IMG/VR virus record: IMGVR_UViG_3300021471_000016
Location: 1 to 35,445 of that record
Source: a virus
Direction: 5' to 3' (one strand)
Length of the DNA stretch: 35,445 nt
Shown here: positions 2,684-21,876 of the stretch, in pieces
Layout: the number at the start of each line of letters is the position of its first letter
Position numbering within the stretch: the stretch's first letter is position 1
The notes under the pieces: model-generated
Databases searched by the model: none
Told to the model about the DNA's origin: nothing
The model's input: only the letters and a program-made list of their open reading frames with translations
Made by a program: the position numbers and the translations under genes

Positions 2684-4748
2684 ATGTAAAGATATAGCAA
2701 AAGCATGCGGAGTGACGCCCCGATACATTCGGAGGAGGGCGGAGCAGGAAAATTGGTGCTTCACATTAAAGCGAAATCAGAATGGCAGGCCCAAAAGATT
2801 ATATTTTTTTTCAGCATTACCTCCCGACATCAAACAGAAAATCATAGAGCATGAAGTGGATCTTAGCGAGGTTCCCCGTCTGGAAGTTCATGACCAGGCT
2901 CCATGCCCAATACTTCCGAAACATCTCAACAACCCAAAAATCGCCCGGAAATTCAAGGTCGCTCAGTTCCTGCGGTCTCTTCCCAGGGGGGCCGGAAGGG
3001 AATCTGCGGCTCAAATGCTCGCCGATCTGTATGGGGTCCATAGAGCAACCATCTGGCGATGGGTACAATGGGTCGAAAATCGGAACGTCAAAACTCAAGA
3101 AAACGATTTTGTTCTTCCAAAGTCGAAAGCCTTTTCCCCACAGGCGCTAGCATATGGTATGGCCGTATATGCTCGCAACATGCGGTGTGGCAGAAAAGCT
3201 GCATATAGAGCATTACAGCAGAAGGCATACAGATCAAACTGGAAGATTGGGGACTATTCCAGCTTCACAAGGCTGCTTAAAAAGGTGCCGGCTGACATAT
3301 GGACAAGGATAGAAAAGGGAGAGCTCGGTTTCGAGCTTGAATGCGTACCCAAAATTATCCGCAACTGGCTAGCGGTGCCTGTCCAGTCAATAATATGCGG
3401 TGACCAAAAGATCTTCGATTATGAGATTTACGATCCGGAAACTGACTCAATCATAATTCCTAACGGTTATCTGTGGATGGACTGTGCGAGCAGATTCATC
3501 AATGGCGCGTGGATTGAGCTAGGCCACTACAACAGTTTCACAGTTGGCTATTCGCTGCGTGAAGCCCTTCGATACGGTGTCCCGGAGGAAATTTTCACCG
3601 ACTGGGGCAAGCCTGAAGGATCCAACCACATATCCCACATCCGGAAGTCAATCCAGGAACTATGCTACACGGGCAACTTTTCAGACTTCACGGATAAATA
3701 TTACTTCAGCCACAAAAAAGCCCAACCTATGAAACCGTGGCAGAAACCTATCGAAAACATCATGAATCAGATCGACCTCATATTGAAAGAGCATTTTCCG
3801 CCCGGATATCGAAAGCGTCAGGCGGATGCATGGACAAATAAGGAAGTGCAGAAAAAATTAAAATCGGAGCGAAAAAAGAACGAACTCATGACGGTACATG
3901 AGTTTATTGAGCTCGTATTTAAAGTTATCGACGAACATAACCAGAGAAAAAAGAGACTTCGCGAAGGCACAACCATAGTTCCTGCAAAAATCTATAAAGA
4001 AGGACTAGAGTCTCAAACAAGATTAAGGCTCCCTGATACCACATTAGATTATATCTGCCTTCCAACATTTCAGCGTGTTCCCAAGCAGGGAAAGGTGGGG
4101 GTCCAGGTAAGAAAAGGAGACTTCCGGGAATATTTTTCGTTCAAGCTTAGTGGCTACGAATACGTACAGGTAAGTGTCGATCCGTATAATCCAGAAGCTC
4201 CCGCGGTTCTTACTGATCCCGAAGGAAATTTCATCGACCTCGCCGAGCCGGTCCCCAGGGCGGTGCCAGGTGAAAGCAACACAGTAAGCGAGCGCTTTTT
4301 CAAGGCGAGAGCCGAGTATATGAAAGAGATCCGCACGAAGGCTCAGGCACTCAAAGACGCTTTCGGGCTGGTCGATAGGAAGGAAGTCCTGGCAATCGGC
4401 AAGACAGCTCATACAGCGAGAAAGGCCAGGAAAGAAAAGGACTTCCGCGAAGAGGCTCGTGAACATCAAAAGAAGCAAGCAAAAGTCGTAAAGATGGAAG
4501 CCCGCAGGGAGCGTAAGCGCCTGGCGCAAGCTCTCGAAGAGCCTGTTCTGGAAACTGACGGGAGATTTCAGATCCCCGAGGATTCCAGGGCAAGATACAG
4601 GCTATGGAAGGATCTAGATGCCAGGCATGACGAACTGAACGCTGAAGAATATGCCTTTTGGAAGCATTTTCAGTCTACGGCGGACTTTCACGCGTATAAG
4701 ACGCTCGAAGAGGATTTCGGGGACGCGTTTCTAGGATGCGTTAAGTGA
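2670..4748 (+). CDS. A: Mu-like DDE transposase
   Basis: The 692-residue protein is close in length to MuA (663). The start at 2670 has AGGAAAAAG just before it. Residues 1-70 form a MuA-type winged DNA-binding domain (RCKDIAKACGVTPRYIRRRA). A second helix-turn-helix region follows at about 90-215. The RNase H-like catalytic core carries the DDE triad: D245 (CGDQK), D311 (IFTDWGK) and E362 (QKPIEN). Spacings of 66 and 51 are close to MuA (67 and 56). The C-terminal third contains a beta domain and a long basic helical tail, where MuA contacts its ATPase partner. It joins phage ends to target DNA and drives replicative transposition. The triad is intact, so it is probably active. Confidence 0.95.
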   Translation: MKLYRCKDIAKACGVTPRYIRRRAEQENWCFTLKRNQNGRPKRLYFFSALPPDIKQKIIEHEVDLSEVPRLEVHDQAPCPILPKHLNNPKIARKFKVAQFLRSLPRGAGRESAAQMLADLYGVHRATIWRWVQWVENRNVKTQENDFVLPKSKAFSPQALAYGMAVYARNMRCGRKAAYRALQQKAYRSNWKIGDYSSFTRLLKKVPADIWTRIEKGELGFELECVPKIIRNWLAVPVQSIICGDQKIFDYEIYDPETDSIIIPNGYLWMDCASRFINGAWIELGHYNSFTVGYSLREALRYGVPEEIFTDWGKPEGSNHISHIRKSIQELCYTGNFSDFTDKYYFSHKKAQPMKPWQKPIENIMNQIDLILKEHFPPGYRKRQADAWTNKEVQKKLKSERKKNELMTVHEFIELVFKVIDEHNQRKKRLREGTTIVPAKIYKEGLESQTRLRLPDTTLDYICLPTFQRVPKQGKVGVQVRKGDFREYFSFKLSGYEYVQVSVDPYNPEAPAVLTDPEGNFIDLAEPVPRAVPGESNTVSERFFKARAEYMKEIRTKAQALKDAFGLVDRKEVLAIGKTAHTARKARKEKDFREEAREHQKKQAKVVKMEARRERKRLAQALEEPVLETDGRFQIPEDSRARYRLWKDLDARHDELNAEEYAFWKHFQSTADFHAYKTLEEDFGDAFLGCVK

Positions 4749-5309: not shown

Positions 5310-6068
5310 ATGTCAACAGATAGCAGGAGGTTGAAAGTGGCTGGAAGCAACGGAACCATAGCACCACTCCAAAACGTAGCACTCTGCATCAAAGCCCTGG
5401 AGCGGGCAATTAAAAGGCCGCAGTATCTCCCCGGCATGGTCTGTTTTTACGGTCCGTCCGGGTGGGGGAAAACGTTCGCCGCATGTTTCACAGCGAACAA
5501 ATACAAGGCATTCTACGTCGAATGCAGGTCCACGTGGACAAGAAAAGCCATTTTGAAAGCGATCTGTAAAGAGATGGGAATTGCGGCCGCCCGGACCATA
5601 TATGACATGACGGACCAGATAATAGAACATCTCCGAATGACCGGGCAACCGCTTCTCATAGACGAAATGGACCACATAGTAGAAAAACAAGCGGTCAACA
5701 TCATTCGCGATCTATACGACGGAAGCGGTGTGCCTATTCTACTGATCGGAGAGGAACGCATACCGGTGAAACTAAAAAAATGGGAACGTTTCCACGGTCG
5801 CATCCTCGATTGGGTCCCTGCCCAGCCGGCCGATATCGAAGACGCTCGCGTTCTTATGCAATTTTACTGCAAGAAGGTTCAGGTGGGCGATGACCTCTTA
5901 GACCGAATAGTCAGTATGGCCAGGGGATCAGTTCGCCGCATAGTGGTGAATCTCGCCAGAGTAGAAGAGGAGGCACTGGGCATGGGAGTGAAGAAGATTG
6001 GCCTCAAAGAATGGGGCAAGAGGCCGATATGGACCGGGGAGGCTCCGGCAAGGAGGTTGGCAGCATGA
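5310..6068 (+). CDS. B: MuB-like AAA target-selection ATPase
   Basis: The 252-residue AAA+ ATPase has Walker A GPSGWGKT at residues 48-55 and Walker B LLIDEMD at 115-121. A sensor region (ILLIGEER) and a C-terminal lid (RGSVRRIVVNLARVEEEA) follow. In Mu this protein binds target DNA as filaments, stimulates the transposase and confers target immunity. At 252 residues it is shorter than MuB (312) and lacks room for MuB's N-terminal DNA-binding appendage. A GTG at 5337, six bases after AGGAGG (5325-5330), is a better-supported start than the ATG at 5310 and would remove nine residues. The next gene overlaps it by 4 nt. Confidence 0.9.
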   Translation: MSTDSRRLKVAGSNGTIAPLQNVALCIKALERAIKRPQYLPGMVCFYGPSGWGKTFAACFTANKYKAFYVECRSTWTRKAILKAICKEMGIAAARTIYDMTDQIIEHLRMTGQPLLIDEMDHIVEKQAVNIIRDLYDGSGVPILLIGEERIPVKLKKWERFHGRILDWVPAQPADIEDARVLMQFYCKKVQVGDDLLDRIVSMARGSVRRIVVNLARVEEEALGMGVKKIGLKEWGKRPIWTGEAPARRLAA

Positions 6069-7575: not shown

Positions 7576-7970
7576 GCAATAACAGAGAAGCATACAAAAC
7601 AAAGCTTCTGGCGGAGCTGACGCGCCATGTGGGACGAGCCCGCGCGGTACCCATGACGCAGCTATACAGAGCAGTGTTCGGTAAAGATTACAGGGACAAG
7701 ATCAACGACACAAGGAAGCTGCGAGATCTGGTAACCGAGCTAAGGCATGAAGGTGTCCCCATCATGTCGTATGCGGCTAAAGATGCCGGGGGTTACTATC
7801 TGGCGGCCGCATCGTCGGAGCTCGTAGACTATTGCGACCGTCTGAAGCGCCAGGCGCTCAAGAAACTCGCAATCGTGTCGAAAATCAAAAACACCAACCT
7901 GCCCACCCTTCTCGGGCAGCTAACGTTAGAATTGGAGAAGCTGAATGACGGATATACAAAGAGAAATTGA
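7572..7970 (+). CDS. Winged-helix early protein
   Basis: The 132-residue product has an N-terminal winged helix-turn-helix, with TQLYRAVFG followed by NDTRKLRDLVTELRHEGVPI and a hairpin around SYAAKDAGGYYLA. A C-terminal helix bundle (residues 85-125) follows. Similar short wHTH proteins recur before gam in Mu-like phages and may act in replication or gene control. The start overlaps the previous stop (ATGA). Its tail overlaps the Gam-like gene by 26 nt. Confidence 0.7.
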   Translation: MSNNREAYKTKLLAELTRHVGRARAVPMTQLYRAVFGKDYRDKINDTRKLRDLVTELRHEGVPIMSYAAKDAGGYYLAAASSELVDYCDRLKRQALKKLAIVSKIKNTNLPTLLGQLTLELEKLNDGYTKRN

Positions 7971-8406
7971 TGCGAAGCTCGAGCTTATCGCCATATACAG
8001 GTACCAGTTAGCTGAACTGGAAGCGGCATACGAGGCTGATCTGGAACGTGTGAGACAGAGGCATGAACCCAGAATCAAGAATCAAAAGAGCCTGATTCAA
8101 ACTGTAGAAAAAGAGCTCCTGAAAGCAGCCCGAAAACATAAGGCCGAGCTTTTCGGCGAGGACGGCGACCTGGTGGAATTACCCCACGGAAGAATTCTCC
8201 GGCATCTGAAACGGGTAGTGCACCGGGCCAGGGGTGTCCTGGAGGCTTTAAAAAAGCTGGGGAGGAAAGATGCCATCAAAGTCGCTGAATCGGTTAACTG
8301 GGACGCACTTTCGAAATGGTCGGACGATGAGCTCCGAGAGATAGGCACGTACAGGAAAGAAAAAGAAGAGTTTAGCTACGAGATATCAGGAGGAAAACGT
8401 ATATGA
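7945..8406 (+). CDS. gam: Gam-like host-nuclease inhibitor
   Basis: The 153-residue protein matches the Mu Gam family. A long N-terminal coiled helix (residues 1-70) is followed by a beta region with LPHGRILRHL, then GVLEALKKLGRKDAIKVAESVN and a final ELREIGTYRKEKEEFSYEI strand. Gam is a bacterial Ku-like DNA-end binder that shields linear phage DNA from RecBCD-type nucleases. Size is a little below Mu Gam (about 174). The gene overlaps its neighbours on both sides. Confidence 0.88.
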   Translation: MTDIQREIDAKLELIAIYRYQLAELEAAYEADLERVRQRHEPRIKNQKSLIQTVEKELLKAARKHKAELFGEDGDLVELPHGRILRHLKRVVHRARGVLEALKKLGRKDAIKVAESVNWDALSKWSDDELREIGTYRKEKEEFSYEISGGKRI

Positions 8407-8654
8407 TCAGGCTTAGTAGACATTTTGTAAATAACTGGAAAATGCGTGTCGGAGGAGATCCGGATCCCGCTGAAATTACACGTATGCTGGCCGACAGCAT
8501 ACGAGTACAGCCCTGCAGGAACCTGCAACGCCTCAATGGCGAGCTGTATCGCCAGCTCGCTATCTACTGGATTCCGGAGAGGAACATAATTATAAAGGTG
8601 GACGATTTTTACGGCACCGCCGTGACGGTGATGAAGGGAAACGGAAGAAAATGA
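8403..8654 (+). CDS. Small early protein of unknown function
   Basis: The 83-residue product overlaps the gam stop (ATGA) and follows AGGAGG. An N-terminal helix with SRHFVNNWKMRVG precedes a helix (ITRMLADSI) and a three-stranded beta sheet (YRQLAIYWIPERNIIIKVDD...AVTVM). The alpha-beta layout resembles small RelE/DUF4258-like folds, but no catalytic residues can be identified, so this is only a shape impression. It is coupled to the next gene (ATGA at 8651). Confidence 0.6.
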   Translation: MIRLSRHFVNNWKMRVGGDPDPAEITRMLADSIRVQPCRNLQRLNGELYRQLAIYWIPERNIIIKVDDFYGTAVTVMKGNGRK

Positions 8655-8857
8655 AGTTGCAGAGAGCCAGAATATGCATAGATTGTGAAGAGATATGGGA
8701 AACTGGCCAGATGTGTCCACGGTGTGGCTCAAAGGCATGGTGGTGGCTGGCTTCCTGGTTGGATCGGCCATATAGAGGAGATAAGCATGATACAAAGCGA
8801 ACAGAAAAAAGTAAGGCTAACCTTTCAGGAGCGCTTGCTCGGCACTGCTCCTGCTAA
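8651..8857 (+). CDS. Small zinc-ribbon protein
   Basis: The 68-residue protein's first half is a rubredoxin-like zinc ribbon, with CIDC at residues 9-12 and CPRCGS at 22-27, followed by a Trp-rich stretch (AWWWLASW). The start overlaps the preceding stop. The last 71 nt run through the start of the next gene in a different frame, so the C-terminus may be unconstrained. Small zinc ribbons of this kind are common in phage early operons; no role is known. Confidence 0.55.
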   Translation: MKLQRARICIDCEEIWETGQMCPRCGSKAWWWLASWLDRPYRGDKHDTKRTEKSKANLSGALARHCSC

Positions 8858-9374
8858 CAATAATTACAGGAAATATGTTATCGAAAAAGCCCCGGTCCCC
8901 GATGATCCGGAGGTGCTGGACGAGTTAGAAACCGCACCCAAATCGGACGAAGATACTCTGATTACCGGGTTTCACCGGGACGCAGATGGGATATATCTCC
9001 TGGACTACCAGGTAAAGGGGTTTTTCAAAGAAGCCGGGAATATTTTGAAAGATATCCTCAAGGTCCGGGCATTACGGTCCAAGCTGGACAATTTTTTCTT
9101 TGTCTTTCCAAGATACATATGGCTCGCGGAGAAGCCGGACGGCATATTTACCCGCCCGATCCGCGCGCAGACTCCCCGCGGCCCCCGTATATGCCTGGGA
9201 CACAGCGAGTATCTGAATCCACCGGTATCCATAGAGATTACGCTGGACCTGCTTCCCCACAAGGAGCTTACGTGGGATGTGATATATACGCTCCTCGATT
9301 ACGGAAGCAGGAAGGGAATTGGCCAGTTCAGGAACGGCTCGTTCGGCCGTTTCACCTGGGAGCAAATTCAATAG
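8787..9374 (+). CDS. RAMP-like phage protein next to periodic array
   Basis: The 195-residue product starts at 8787 after GAGGAG. The N-terminal strand runs into a loop (VRLTFQERLLGTAP). A central YLLDYQVKGFFKEAGNIL resembles the strand plus helix of RAMP proteins. The C-terminus ends with a glycine-rich loop (GSRKGIGQFRNGSFGRF) like the G-loop of Cas5/Cas6/Cas7-type RNA-binding proteins. PRGPRICLGHSEYLNPP precedes a second beta-alpha-beta unit (ITLDLL...LTWDVIYTLLDYG). I therefore suspect a RAMP-like nucleic-acid binder; no similarity search was possible. It is immediately upstream of the 9401-10000 periodic tract, which has no other obvious partner. Confidence 0.6.
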   Translation: MIQSEQKKVRLTFQERLLGTAPANNNYRKYVIEKAPVPDDPEVLDELETAPKSDEDTLITGFHRDADGIYLLDYQVKGFFKEAGNILKDILKVRALRSKLDNFFFVFPRYIWLAEKPDGIFTRPIRAQTPRGPRICLGHSEYLNPPVSIEITLDLLPHKELTWDVIYTLLDYGSRKGIGQFRNGSFGRFTWEQIQ

Positions 9375-9400
9375 ACGGTGCAGGGGCATTGAGTAGAAAT

Positions 9401-10000
9401 GCGATGGCACTGCTTAGCATTGAAGCGCGAGGGCGGCGCATTGCGGGGCCCTGAGAAGTGATGCGCAGGCATAGCGTTGCTTTGAATTGCATGGGCGTAG
9501 CTTGGAATTGCTTCGGCGGAGTAAAGCGACGCATGGGCGGCGCGGTGAGAAGCGATGCGCAGGCATGGCATGGCGTGGCGGGGCTTTGGCGTTGCATTGA
9601 GTGGCAAGGCGAAGGCCATGCATCAATTAGCACAGCAATGCACCGGCATTGCAAAGCTAAGCAGGGGCACGAAAAATGCGGAGGCAGAGCGAAGTAAAGC
9701 TGCGGTGCAGCACCGCTTGGGCATAGCGCAGAATCGCTGAGGCAAGGTAACGCATCGCGAGGGCATAGCTAAGCGCAAGCTAAGCATTGCAGCGCAGAGG
9801 AATTGCAAAGCTTAGCACAGGCATTGTTTAGCGATCCAGTGCGACGGCAAAGCGGAGATAAGCGTTGATTCGCGGGGCATTGGCAAAACAAGGTGCCAAT
9901 AAACTCGGCTAACCACAGGCATGAATGCAATGGCATTGCAGTGCGTCGCAAAGGTAGCGCTTTGAATAGCAAGGGCAATGATCAGCAAGGCAAGGGCGAG
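9401..10000 (+). repeat. Pentanucleotide-phased GC array (5-nt period, 1+5n blocks)
   Basis: This non-coding tract has a G every 5 nt, usually GC, with single-base phase slips at which the extra base is also G (GGC). From 9407 to 9667 I counted 51 in-phase positions: 50 are G and 42 are GC. All 10 slips in that part carry GG. Distances between slips are 36, 26, 21, 21, 26, 26, 26, 31 and 21. The rule continues with some irregularity, for example around 9667-9684 and 9883-9933, to three successive 21-nt blocks at 9933-9996. The mean step is about 5.2 nt. Mixed 21- and 26-nt blocks break any reading frame, so the ORFs here are artefacts. Individual units differ, so this is neither a simple tandem repeat nor CRISPR. 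Confidence 0.85.
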
Positions 10001-10008
10001 GTAATGAG

Positions 10009-10491
10009 ATGAAACTAACATGTCCGGCATGTGGAGCGGTAGCAAGCGCGGAAGCCTGGGTTAACGATGCATCCTGTCGCCAGTTTATGGATGAGCTTAC
10101 CAGGCTGCCCGGTCCTGTCCAGGTCAGAACTCTTCCCTACATAGCGCTTTTCCGGAAGAGCAAACGTGGCCTGTCGTGGCCACGCGCTCTCCGGATTATT
10201 AAGACACTCTCTGAGCTGGTACACGAGGGCACAGTACAGTGGGACGGCGGTGAGCTCAGGCCGGCTCCACCTTATCTATGGGCAGAGGCTATGGATAGAA
10301 CCATAGACAGAAGCCCTAAAGCATTGGAAAACCATAATTACCTGCGTAAGATAGCGTGGGAGATGGCCGAAAAGCTCGCTGCGAAAGCAGAAAGAGAACG
10401 CGAACAGCAAAAGATGAATCGCGCGTATATAGAGCGCGAACCGGAAAAAGTTAGTCAGGTTTTACGAGAGTTTCTGAAGGAGAAAAAATAA
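10009..10491 (+). CDS. Zinc-ribbon/wHTH phage protein, possible replication accessory
   Basis: The 160-residue product has an N-terminal half zinc ribbon (CPACGAVASAEAW) and a Cys at 23. A helical domain with LPYIALFRKSKRGLSWPRALRII and a winged segment (HEGTVQWDGGELRPAPPYLW) follows. The C-terminus is a long charged coil (residues 105-160). The combination of small ribbon, LSWxRA helix and ALENHNYLRKI motif recurs in temperate-phage early or recombination clusters, but its function is not established. It begins directly after the periodic array, with GCGAGG as ribosome site. It overlaps the next gene by one base (TAATG). Confidence 0.65.
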   Translation: MKLTCPACGAVASAEAWVNDASCRQFMDELTRLPGPVQVRTLPYIALFRKSKRGLSWPRALRIIKTLSELVHEGTVQWDGGELRPAPPYLWAEAMDRTIDRSPKALENHNYLRKIAWEMAEKLAAKAEREREQQKMNRAYIEREPEKVSQVLREFLKEKK

Positions 10492-10691
10492 TGCTTTTTC
10501 GCTCTGATCGAAAAGAGCCGGTAACTATATCAGGAGTAATTGTCGCTGAAACCAAAAAAGCCATTCTCTTCGACGACGGCATAATGAGAGAGTGGGTGCC
10601 GAAGTCGCAAATTCTGGATATGAAATCCAGGGAAGGCGGCCTGTACGAAATCACAATACCCCGGTGGCTCCTGGAGGAAAAGTTCGGTTAA
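10491..10691 (+). CDS. Small beta-barrel-like protein (66 aa)
   Basis: The 66-residue protein is mostly beta strand. ISGVIVAETKKAILF, then MREWVPKSQIL, then LYEITIPRWLLEEKFG resemble small OB/Sm-like phage proteins in which a WVPKSQI strand pairs with a terminal IPxWLxEEK helix. Charge and fold suggest nucleic-acid binding, which is inference. Its start overlaps the upstream stop (TAATG), and the next ATG follows immediately. Confidence 0.6.
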   Translation: MLFRSDRKEPVTISGVIVAETKKAILFDDGIMREWVPKSQILDMKSREGGLYEITIPRWLLEEKFG

Positions 10692-10898
10692 ATGAAAGCT
10701 GACATAGAAAAGATGGCGAAGTGTATATATTTGCTGCAGTCAAACAGCCGCATAAGCGTCCGGCGCCTGCAGCATGAGCTCGGTATCTCGAGGCGGTCAG
10801 TATATCGATGGATCGATGCCGTGTCCCTGGTATTGCCCATAAAATTAAAAAATGGCGTTATTATCAACATCTCAAAAGAAGGCCCCGGGCAGAGCTAA
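10692..10898 (+). CDS. Small HTH_11/DeoR-like DNA-binding protein
   Basis: The 68-residue protein is a complete winged helix-turn-helix. KCIYLLQSNSRISVRRLQHE is followed by the recognition helix GISRRSVYRWIDAV and a hairpin wing (LPIKLKNGVIINI). It resembles the N-terminal domain of DeoR/WYL-type regulators without the effector domain. As the last gene of the plus-strand early operon before the late block, it is a candidate for the early-to-late switch (the Mor/C position in Mu), by position only. Confidence 0.65.
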   Translation: MKADIEKMAKCIYLLQSNSRISVRRLQHELGISRRSVYRWIDAVSLVLPIKLKNGVIINISKEGPGQS

Positions 10899-19003: not shown

Positions 19004-20283
19004 TAATAGAAATTCTTAAGGAAGTTAAAGATATACCCAGTGAGTTTCAACTGCTGCCTTATGGCAGAATCGACATCGAGGGAGAGCCCCCGGCGTATGT
19101 CGACGAGCAATCCATTGCCTCTATTGTCGCAGAGTTCCGCCGCCGCGGCAACGACATGGTCATAGACTACGAACATCAAACTCTCAAGGACATCCAGGCC
19201 CCTGCGGCAGGATGGATCAAGCGACTAATAGACCGAGGCAAGGGTGGGCTTTGGGCAGTGGTAGAATGGACGGAGCGGGCGAAGGAATACCTCAAGGACA
19301 AGGAATACCGATATTTTTCGCCGGTTTTCTGGATCACCAAAGAGGGCCGGAAGGTGATAAAGATTAAAAACGTCGCGCTTACCAATCTTCCTAAGATCAA
19401 TCAGCTACGGCCCATCGTTGGAAAACTTAGCCGCGAGGAGGCAAGGGCTGCGCAGCGGGAGCGTTCCCGCAAATATGGAATCGGCATCAAGGAAGGAGGC
19501 CACGTGACCAAGCCCTCGGAGTGGGCGGATGTGCCCGATGACCAGTGGCTGGATCCGGTCAACTACCGGTACCCTTGCCCCGATGCCGATCAGACCCGGG
19601 CCGCTGCAAGCTACTGGGGGCAGAAGGACAACCAAAGGCAATACACGTCCGAGGAACGCGCAATCATCAATGCGCGGCTGGACAGGTTCAGGAAAAAGTT
19701 TGGCATAGGAAAATTCAAGAAGGAGGCAAAGATGATTACGAAGATCCGCAAGCTTTTGGGGCTGGCAGATGATGCCGGCGAAGACAAGGTGATGGAGGCC
19801 GTAGAGGCCGTGGTGGCAAAGAACAAAGAGCTTGAAGGCAAAGAGGTGGTTGCCTGCAAGGAGGTGTTGGATGCCCTTGGCGTGGAACAAGAGGCAGGAA
19901 AAGAAGCGGTACTTGCAAAGATCGAAGAGCTGAAGGCACCGGCTGGAGTGGCACAGAAACTAAGCCAGGAGGTTGCCGAGCTCAAACGCACCATCGCCAA
20001 GATGAAGCAGGATGACCTCGTTGAGAGGGCACTTAAGGAAGGCAAGACCTCGCCGGAAGAACTGGATGCATGGGGGCGGGAGCTCGCAGAAAAGAGCCCC
20101 GAGCAGTTCGAAAAGATCGTCCTTTCCAGGCCTGCCGGAAGCGTGGTGCCCGTTGAGGGATTAAAGCCTGCCAGGGACAAAAAAGATGGGCTGGATGAAG
20201 TCCAGATGAGCATCAACAAGATGCTCGGTATCGACGATGAAACCTGGAAGAAGTACGGACCCAATGAGTCAATGGGTCAATGA
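19000..20283 (+). CDS. I: Capsid maturation protease/scaffold (Mu gpI-like)
   Basis: The 427-residue product has an N-terminal Mu I-type protease domain (residues about 1-145), with VIDYEHQTL and YRYFSPVFW among its conserved segments. An inserted module at about 167-240 (DPVNYRYPCP ... RAAASYWGQ ... ERAIINARLDRF) recurs in some phage protease/scaffold proteins. The C-terminal half is a charged, coiled scaffold region ending in KMLGIDDETWKKYG, the family's closing motif. The protease cuts scaffold and itself during head maturation. The stop codon is the first TGAGTC of a repeat block. Confidence 0.85.
   Translation: MIIEILKEVKDIPSEFQLLPYGRIDIEGEPPAYVDEQSIASIVAEFRRRGNDMVIDYEHQTLKDIQAPAAGWIKRLIDRGKGGLWAVVEWTERAKEYLKDKEYRYFSPVFWITKEGRKVIKIKNVALTNLPKINQLRPIVGKLSREEARAAQRERSRKYGIGIKEGGHVTKPSEWADVPDDQWLDPVNYRYPCPDADQTRAAASYWGQKDNQRQYTSEERAIINARLDRFRKKFGIGKFKKEAKMITKIRKLLGLADDAGEDKVMEAVEAVVAKNKELEGKEVVACKEVLDALGVEQEAGKEAVLAKIEELKAPAGVAQKLSQEVAELKRTIAKMKQDDLVERALKEGKTSPEELDAWGRELAEKSPEQFEKIVLSRPAGSVVPVEGLKPARDKKDGLDEVQMSINKMLGIDDETWKKYGPNESMGQ
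19732..20283 (+). CDS. Z: Internal-start scaffold protein (Mu gpZ-like)
   Basis: An in-frame ATG at 19732 inside the protease gene is preceded by AAGGAGG at ideal spacing. Initiation there gives a 183-residue coiled-coil scaffold lacking the protease. This mirrors Mu, where scaffold Z is the C-terminal part of I made from an internal start. Embedded production of excess scaffold is the likely purpose. Confidence 0.65.
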   Translation: MITKIRKLLGLADDAGEDKVMEAVEAVVAKNKELEGKEVVACKEVLDALGVEQEAGKEAVLAKIEELKAPAGVAQKLSQEVAELKRTIAKMKQDDLVERALKEGKTSPEELDAWGRELAEKSPEQFEKIVLSRPAGSVVPVEGLKPARDKKDGLDEVQMSINKMLGIDDETWKKYGPNESMGQ

Positions 20284-20424
20284 GTCCGTGAGTCCATGAG
20301 TCGAAGGTCTGTGAGTCGAGAGTCCATGAGTGCCACGACCCAATAGACCCAATGACTCAATAGACCCGACGGACCCAACGACTCAATGGACCCAATAGAC
20401 TCAATCACCCAACGACTCAATAGA
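20281..20424 (+). repeat. Degenerate TGAGTC/GACTCA repeat block before the decoration gene
   Basis: The left part has TGAGTC-type words at 20281, 20289, 20297, 20312 and 20327. The right part is a run of 8-9-nt units of the form CAATAGACC, CAATGACT or CAACGACT. The two halves are largely reverse complementary, so the transcript can fold into a long imperfect hairpin. A related block follows the capsid gene. Confidence 0.75.
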
Positions 20425-20443
20425 CCAGACAAGGAGGTAAAAA

Positions 20444-20884: not shown

Positions 20885-21763
20885 ATGATTATAAATCAGG
20901 CGACATTACAGGGCATATATAAGTCCTTTTCAACCATCTTCCGGCAGGCGTTCGACGGTGCCCCCACCATGTGGGAGACCGTTGCCATGCGCGCACCATC
21001 TGCCGGCCGTAGCGTGGATTACAAGTGGCTTGGCGACTTCCCCATGATGAAGGAATGGGTCGGTGAGCGGGCGATAAAGGATCTTAGCGCGTTCTCCTAC
21101 GAGATCGTCAACAAGAACTACGAGGCAACCATAGAGGTGGACCGCGACGACATCGAGGACGACCAGATTGGCGTCTATACGCCTATGGTTCAGGGCCTGG
21201 GCGCAGCTGCCAAGCAGCACCGCGACATTCTGGTATTCAGTCTCCTCGCCGCTGGTTTTTCCACTCTCTGCTATGATGGGCAGTATTTCTTCGACACAGA
21301 CCACCCGGTAGCCGGCGCAAGCGTATCCAACTCTGGCGGCGGGTCCGGCACCGCTTGGTACCTTCTGGATTTGAGCCGCCCCGTCAAGCCCTTGATTCTC
21401 CAGGTCAGGAAGGAGCCCCAGTTCGTAGCAATGGACCGGCCAGACGACGAGAATGTCTTCATGAGGCGGAAGTTTCGCTACGGGGTAGACGACCGCAAGA
21501 ACGTGGGCTTTGGCTTCTGGCAAATGGCATATGCCAGCAAGGATACTCTCAATGCCACCAATTATGCTGCAGCGCGGGCGGCTATGATGAGCTTCAAGAA
21601 TGATGAGGGAGTTCCCCTGGGTATCGTTCCGACGCACCTGGTGGTTCCCCCCACCCTGGAAGAAGCGGGTAAGAGGATCGTTGAGGTCCAGACCGATGCC
21701 AGCGGTGCGGGCAACCCCTGGTACGGCACGGCCAAGCTGCTCGTAGTGCCGTGGCTGGCATGA
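20885..21763 (+). CDS. T: Major capsid protein (Mu gpT-like)
   Basis: The 292-residue product is of the Mu-like major head subunit family. The N-terminus is MIINQATLQGIYKSFSTIF. It continues with YKWLGDFPMMKEWVGERAI, then EIVNKNYEATIEVDRDDIEDD and FDTDHPVAG. The C-terminus has GIVPTHLVVPPTLEEAGKRIV. These motifs are highly characteristic. It forms the icosahedral shell. AAGGAGGTA precedes the start. It is bracketed by related repeat/hairpin blocks. Confidence 0.95.
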   Translation: MIINQATLQGIYKSFSTIFRQAFDGAPTMWETVAMRAPSAGRSVDYKWLGDFPMMKEWVGERAIKDLSAFSYEIVNKNYEATIEVDRDDIEDDQIGVYTPMVQGLGAAAKQHRDILVFSLLAAGFSTLCYDGQYFFDTDHPVAGASVSNSGGGSGTAWYLLDLSRPVKPLILQVRKEPQFVAMDRPDDENVFMRRKFRYGVDDRKNVGFGFWQMAYASKDTLNATNYAAARAAMMSFKNDEGVPLGIVPTHLVVPPTLEEAGKRIVEVQTDASGAGNPWYGTAKLLVVPWLA

Positions 21764-21858
21764 TAGAGTCGACGGGTCTGTGAGTCTGTGAGTCGGGGCC
21801 CCAACGACCCAATGACTCAACAGACTCAATAGACCCAATAGACCCAACAACCCAATAG
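21764..21858 (+). repeat. Related TGAGTC/GACTCA block and long hairpin after the capsid gene
   Basis: The segment 21774-21794 (GGGTCTG then two TGAGTC words) pairs with 21814-21836 almost perfectly, with one-base bulges. The loop itself contains GGGGCCCC. Further CAATAGACC-type units follow to about 21858. The absence of a T-run argues against simple termination. It may protect or process the capsid mRNA. Confidence 0.75.
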
Positions 21859-21876
21859 ACCAGAAAGGAGATAACC

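Follow-up and report, generated by a model that had tools for sequence, protein, structure and literature searches.

The noncoding pentamer tract at positions 9380 to 10001 of a Mu-like phage is best read as the guide-RNA array of a VIPR-type system, and we put the probability of this reading at about 0.88. The window, i.e., the whole stretch of 35,445 nucleotides analyzed here, is an IMG/VR contig of that phage. VIPR (Viral Interference Programmable Repeat) is a phage-encoded, CRISPR-like, RNA-guided system first reported in a 2026 preprint (PMC13142463). In the main text of that preprint, Vipr is a phage RAMP protein, and its guide RNAs (vrRNAs), made of GGY/NN pentamers, serve DNA recognition and act on rival phages. 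The window's tract was assigned to VIPR because it adjoins a RAMP gene, because the gene product has a predicted RAMP fold, and because the arrangement is that of a single phage-borne RAMP with long intergenic pentamer tracts. A literature search with words for the periodicity returned nothing, and VIPR surfaced through a search by mechanism. The first-pass annotation had known of no named element with this rule; the pentamer-repeat guide RNAs beside a phage RAMP in the preprint (PMC13142463) are such an element.

The relevant features of the window are as follows.

5310-6068: MuB-like protein
7945-8406: Gam-like protein
8685..9374, + strand: vipr-like gene (predicted stand-alone RAMP), 229 aa from GTG 8685 or 195 aa from ATG 8787, with the C-terminal G-loop GIGQFRNGSFGRF
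9380..10001, + strand: putative guide array, about 120 G-(C/T)-N-N-N repeats in 5n+1-nt blocks with GG slips between, recognized by phase statistics and by the same array beside homologous genes
10009-10491: ORF after the array, phrog_2161 (function unknown), kept in the related phage L171

The window also encodes a terminase, a portal protein, a head protease and a major head protein.

The phased array and the adjoining RAMP gene

The array occupies the gap between ORF 8685/8787-9374 and ORF 10009-10491, starting 6 nt past position 9374. Its phased path (9380-10001) runs through 120 anchors, 112 of which are G, by 93 steps of 5 nt and 26 of 6 nt. The mean step is 5.218 nt, in agreement with the earlier estimate of about 5.2 nt. 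Between 9407 and 9667, G occupies 50 of 51 phased anchors and all 10 slips read GG, the same counts as in the first-pass annotation; 42 of the anchors are GC. The autocorrelation and Fourier analyses proposed there gave a clear period: the G autocorrelation was 0.35 at lag 5, 0.25 at lag 16, 0.34 at lag 21 and 0.31 at lag 26, with a spectral peak at period 5.16. With steps of 5 or 6 allowed, the tract had a chain score of 68; none of 500 dinucleotide-preserving shuffles exceeded 24, and nowhere else in the window did the score come near 68. Most blocks have the lengths previously listed (16, 21, 26, 31 and 36 nt), including the three 21-nt blocks that close the tract; lengths of 6, 11 and 71 nt also occur where the rule lapses. 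The array is less regular at 9667-9683 and 9883-9953, and registers may be wrong in degraded stretches of the arrays, including the latter. Rfam and tRNA scans of the window gave no match, nor did a nucleotide search of 8500-10800 among phages.

For the gene at 8685-9374, no family was found in PHROGs, Pfam or PADLOC, and NCBIfam returned only a weak, sub-threshold Csm4 match. A profile built from its relatives matched Csm4 and type VII Cas7 among PDB sequences (E 0.003). The AlphaFold2 model of the product (pLDDT 88.8) aligned along almost its full length with type VII Cas7 (Foldseek E 6e-7; VIA Z 12) and, next best, with Csm3. The best viral match, A0A8S5R426, bears the record name "Cas system-associated RAMP superfamily protein," and the G-loop GxGxxRxxxxGRF is conserved in 40 sequences. 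By its modeled structure, the product is a stand-alone RAMP. The ATG at 8787, giving 195 aa, suits the start of the family better than the GTG at 8685. Vipr is defined as a small stand-alone RAMP homolog with an RRM core, a G-loop and a thumb (PMC13142463), and the modeled protein of 195-229 aa agrees with this in size, RAMP fold and G-loop.

Relatives of the gene were collected first as 41 viral loci, and then by profile as 40 genome loci and 261 viral contigs, 80 of which were fetched. The branch is widespread, with more than 250 viral contigs encoding the protein in addition to bacterial MAG contigs, many of them from gut Clostridia; no relative was found in plasmids. Of 115 non-redundant loci, at least 68 have a strict period-5 array adjoining the RAMP gene; downstream arrays are separated from the gene by a median of 2 nt and upstream arrays by a median of 26 nt. 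At this strict threshold, no array is seen in about 40% of the homologous loci, and weaker arrays are found in further loci. The search of relatives suggested in the first-pass annotation thus recovered the same rule with diverged sequence.

One relative, L171 (84% portal identity), lacks the tract and also the adjacent gene. L175 and L171 are equally near the window by portal (83-84%); L175 has both gene and array, and L171 has neither, which argues that the two come and go together. MuB-bearing and portal-bearing relatives with no RAMP gene have no tract. The arrays track the RAMP gene rather than a fixed phage locus, also in gut Clostridia contigs unlike the window phage. Across the 115 loci, no family consistently adjacent to the RAMP gene (a candidate vap) was recognized. 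The ORF at 10009-10491 is probably neither a vap nor otherwise part of the system, since it is present in L171, where vipr and array are absent.

Array grammar is shared among the relatives. The pentamer G-(C/T)-N-N-N recurs across the scanned loci, with a 6-nt unit most often every 5-6 repeats, although the spacing of slips, counted in repeats, is highly variable. The commonest 6-nt slip units are GCAAAG (405), GCAATG (126), GCAACG (121) and GCAAGG (105), and 1736 of 1956 units have G as the additional base. In several arrays, AA is present in 90-100% of slip units versus 6-27% of ordinary units; in others, including the window's, the slip unit is variable. In L131, a vipr gene of the same family is immediately preceded by a canonical 17-repeat GGYNN tract (5780-5920, equivalent to 2780-2920 of L008), and reading this tract with one base skipped gives a codon-like text with no obvious stop.

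A hairpin closes some arrays. In L013, a strong GC hairpin (4528-4551; -23.8 kcal/mol, z -4.8) lies right past the array end, and this predicted fold is possibly the end of the array transcript. In L019, arrays flank one vipr gene at 2101-2913 and 3621-4200, and the upstream array holds tandemly duplicated blocks (GGCAAAGCAGAGCAACGCAATGCAAAGGC), a pattern which suggests that arrays may grow by block duplication.

Information stored in the variable bases

The free base before G-Y is called X here, and the other two variable bases are called N4 and N5. Linkage was measured as mutual information between pairs of variable bases, with each array shuffled internally as the control. It was present in three pairs only: N4-N5 (z 9.5), N5-X (z 4.4) and X with the next N4 (z 4.5), the last across the constant G-Y. 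Eight other pairings showed no linkage above shuffles. Each linked pair tracks the genomic dinucleotides of the surrounding phage DNA (r 0.76-0.83). Genomic Markov models gave NNX triplets a raised likelihood if these were joined in forward order (z 5-7), but not if X was left out or the order was reversed. The junction signal recurred in both halves of a split of the data (z 6.9 and 4.5), in viral loci (z 6.8), in genome loci (z 3.9) and in the window's subclade (z 4.5). The window array alone, with 68 junctions, is too short and degraded to show the signature (z 0.15). A context artefact of XGCN/XGTN was considered and rejected, as the signal follows dinucleotides instead, separately in GC and in GT repeats.

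Read plainly, these sequence statistics point to contiguous DNA copied into the arrays, three bases in every five. Continuity across slips was not detected, at low power, which fits the slips as guide borders. With triplets aligned as codons, TAG and CTA were depleted, but similar triplets were likewise depleted in other phases, so that no codon alignment is claimed. The dinucleotide signature reveals the bases that are stored, not those that are read. As a method, a search for natural dinucleotides across constant bases reads a guide code without any known target.

Comparison with VIPR and competing explanations

In the proposed mechanism, the array would be transcribed on the + strand, with the vipr gene or just after it. 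Vipr subunits, with their RAMP fold, would bind one per RNA pentamer, each gripping the constant G-Y and leaving the variable bases displayed. The conservation of phase rather than sequence, seen already in the first-pass annotation, fits such a RAMP gripping RNA at each pentamer. All three variable bases of each pentamer would come from one contiguous DNA stretch, so that about 12-21 nt would be stored in a block of 4-7 repeats. One block would end and the next begin at the 5n+1 slip, which in many arrays reads GC AA n G | GC, yielding many short guides concatenated; each block would be a guide, with the third variable base of every repeat read. By analogy with the SUSP1 and P. fulva VIPR systems, for which the preprint demonstrates this experimentally (PMC13142463), the ribonucleoprotein would repress rival phage DNA by binding where it matches.

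The likeness to VIPR is close in several respects. Both are phage-borne, with a single small RAMP carrying a C-terminal G-loop and an adjoining noncoding pentanucleotide tract; both combine a constant G-Y with hypervariable bases, and both leave an information space of three target bases per repeat. The SUSP1 locus (Escherichia phage, KT454805.2) has GGTNN tracts on both sides of two genes, agreeing with the preprint (PMC13142463). Its Vipr is probably ALH47069.1 (annotated as hypothetical), judged by position, length and G-loop. The window's gene family aligns with the G-loop of ALH47069.1, NAGNLCGVGDWRPRFGRF, at E 2e-4 over 31 columns, and the similarity is confined to this loop (hhalign probability 45%). 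The flank of a VIPR locus is described as long noncoding tandem pentamers of GGY/NN "or a related consensus" (PMC13142463), and the present tract follows a related consensus rather than GGY itself.

The differences from the SUSP1 type concern the array and its code. According to the main text of the preprint (PMC13142463), a vrRNA unit of the SUSP1/P. fulva type consists of 9-16 uninterrupted YNNGG repeats and, at the 3' end, a structured tail that does not vary. Here, by contrast, the arrays are continuous, with about 20-200 repeats (about 120 in the window), divided by +1 slips into 5n+1 blocks of mostly 4-8 repeats, and an unsystematic look identified no constant 3' tail. Published vrRNAs have an invariant G in front of G-Y, and their NN pairs with the target while one target base is skipped per repeat (the 1-nt skip rule; PMC13142463). 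In the present arrays, a variable, informative base takes the place of this first G, which makes the stored DNA contiguous. The preprint distinguishes seven VIPR types whose architectures differ from type to type (PMC13142463), and its fig. S18 may already cover the present array architecture. By architecture and fold, the window's element belongs with VIPR, as an array variant and probably a code variant too.

Whether the third base is read decides between the two forms of this assignment. We consider it an even bet that this branch of VIPR uses a triplet code without a skipped base, in short guides between one-base slips; gapped guide RNAs would then have a second reading rule, one that sits between the 1-nt-skip VIPR code and the contiguous code of CRISPR. 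If true, contiguous triplets and short guides behind one-base slips would mean that the VIPR code is not fixed and that a denser code exists. A route from a gapped code to the contiguous code of CRISPR would also be suggested; VIPR has been proposed as the CRISPR ancestor and as a minimal programmable DNA-binding system.

The alternative is that VIPR operates here as published, with only the NN pair recognizing DNA and the third base copied but unread. This is possible, though we are inclined to doubt it. The tested VIPR systems obey the 1-nt skip (PMC13142463), target spacing is three bases per repeat in both readings, and the dinucleotide signature speaks to storage rather than reading. However, the third base is free here and yet linked to both neighbors over thousands of repeats, and an unread base should lose such a link over time. 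NN-only decoding with one skip also gave no excess of targets, though triplet decoding gave little too.

An improbable explanation is that the array RNA serves to bait or regulate the RAMP protein, or acts as a decoy for host type III/VII CRISPR complexes. The resemblance of the RAMP fold to Cas7 and Csm3 is in keeping with it, as is the predicted structure of the + strand RNA of the tract, which exceeds that of shuffles (z -3.9); this extra folding could, however, stem from the self-complementary GC skeleton. A decoy needs no contiguous-DNA information in its variable positions, and the 21/21 match between L087 and L088 described below would be a coincidence.

A locus of class 1 CRISPR-Cas was also rejected, since a tandem repeat search found no near-identical repeats of tens of nucleotides in the tract, and PADLOC and Pfam gave no cas family for the RAMP gene. 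The protein shares its fold and G-loop with the class 1 RAMPs type VII Cas7, Csm3 and Csm4, and presumably, by analogy, their grip on RNA at regular intervals. Unlike in class 1 CRISPR, there are no CRISPR repeats, the period is 5 nt rather than 6 nt, and the RAMP is single, with no other cas genes recognized alongside.

Least probable, and largely refuted, is a duplex-DNA architectural site (conceivably of MuB or gyrase type) in which the G steps keep phase with half-turns of the helix: the window's mean step of 5.218 nt lies near 5.25, but the arrays adjoin a RAMP gene also in gut Clostridia contigs unlike this phage, repeats per slip vary widely, and MuB- or portal-bearing relatives without that gene are devoid of the tract. 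The first-pass annotation had suggested that slips were tuned to the 10.5-bp helix; instead, the mean step differs among arrays (mostly 5.1-5.25, with extremes of 4.9 and 5.4), and the slip unit has a consensus of its own (GCAAAG, GCAATG, GCAACG), as expected for a separator. The bases between the GCs carry the statistics of copied DNA, for which a protein-wrapping site would have no need. Of its interpretations, the long RNA bound at regular intervals came near the best explanation, and the wrapping of duplex DNA found no support.

Target searches and other tracts in the window

Candidate targets were sought with the decoded blocks. When 16-mers were compared with 3.2 Mb of related phage DNA, 13 matches were found, versus 3-7 in six shuffles. 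One block of L087, AGG-AGG-AGA-TCA-TGG-AAG-AAA, matches the related phage L088 at 21 of 21 positions. The matched site covers both the ribosome-binding site and the ATG of an ORF of 63 aa that resembles a regulator (by inspection, AlpA-like), some 0.35 kb upstream of the vipr gene that L088 itself carries. The 18-base core of the block was present in six IMG/VR contigs and the full 21 bases in L088 alone; the chance level of this match was judged from shuffles and this count of six contigs, and is not exact. Another block, at about 7304 of L090, reads GGTTCGAATCCCGTCCGAGGC, like a tRNA T-arm plus acceptor, and such sequence exists in the tRNA region of L047. Its possible targets are the tRNA-borne integration sites that rival elements use.

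Apart from the 21/21 match and the 16-mer excess, decoded blocks matched related phages no better than shuffled ones. For the decoded L075 array, none of 140 genomes from its host family yielded a significant target, and an exact scan with an L175 block gave no match. The window's longest block (21 nt, 18-nt core) hit three unrelated contigs, none at 21/21, which is chance level. NN-only decoding with skips of 0-3 and slip offsets of 0-3 over 1.5 Mb produced no excess over shuffled order, the top match being of low complexity, and triplet decoding across slips at five offsets produced none either. AGGAGG occurred 17 times in decoded blocks against 11.3 expected, which is not significant. Overall, the case for targets of the decoded blocks is no more than suggestive.

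Two further quasi-periodic intergenic tracts are present in the window at 20262-20426 and 21763-21861. They consist of GACCCAATA units with 8- and 9-nt steps and periods of 17 and 26, and flank the region of a small gene and the major capsid gene. Inverse copies of the GAGTC/GGGTC type precede each tract, and each has a predicted long hairpin fold (z -5.4 and -5.3).
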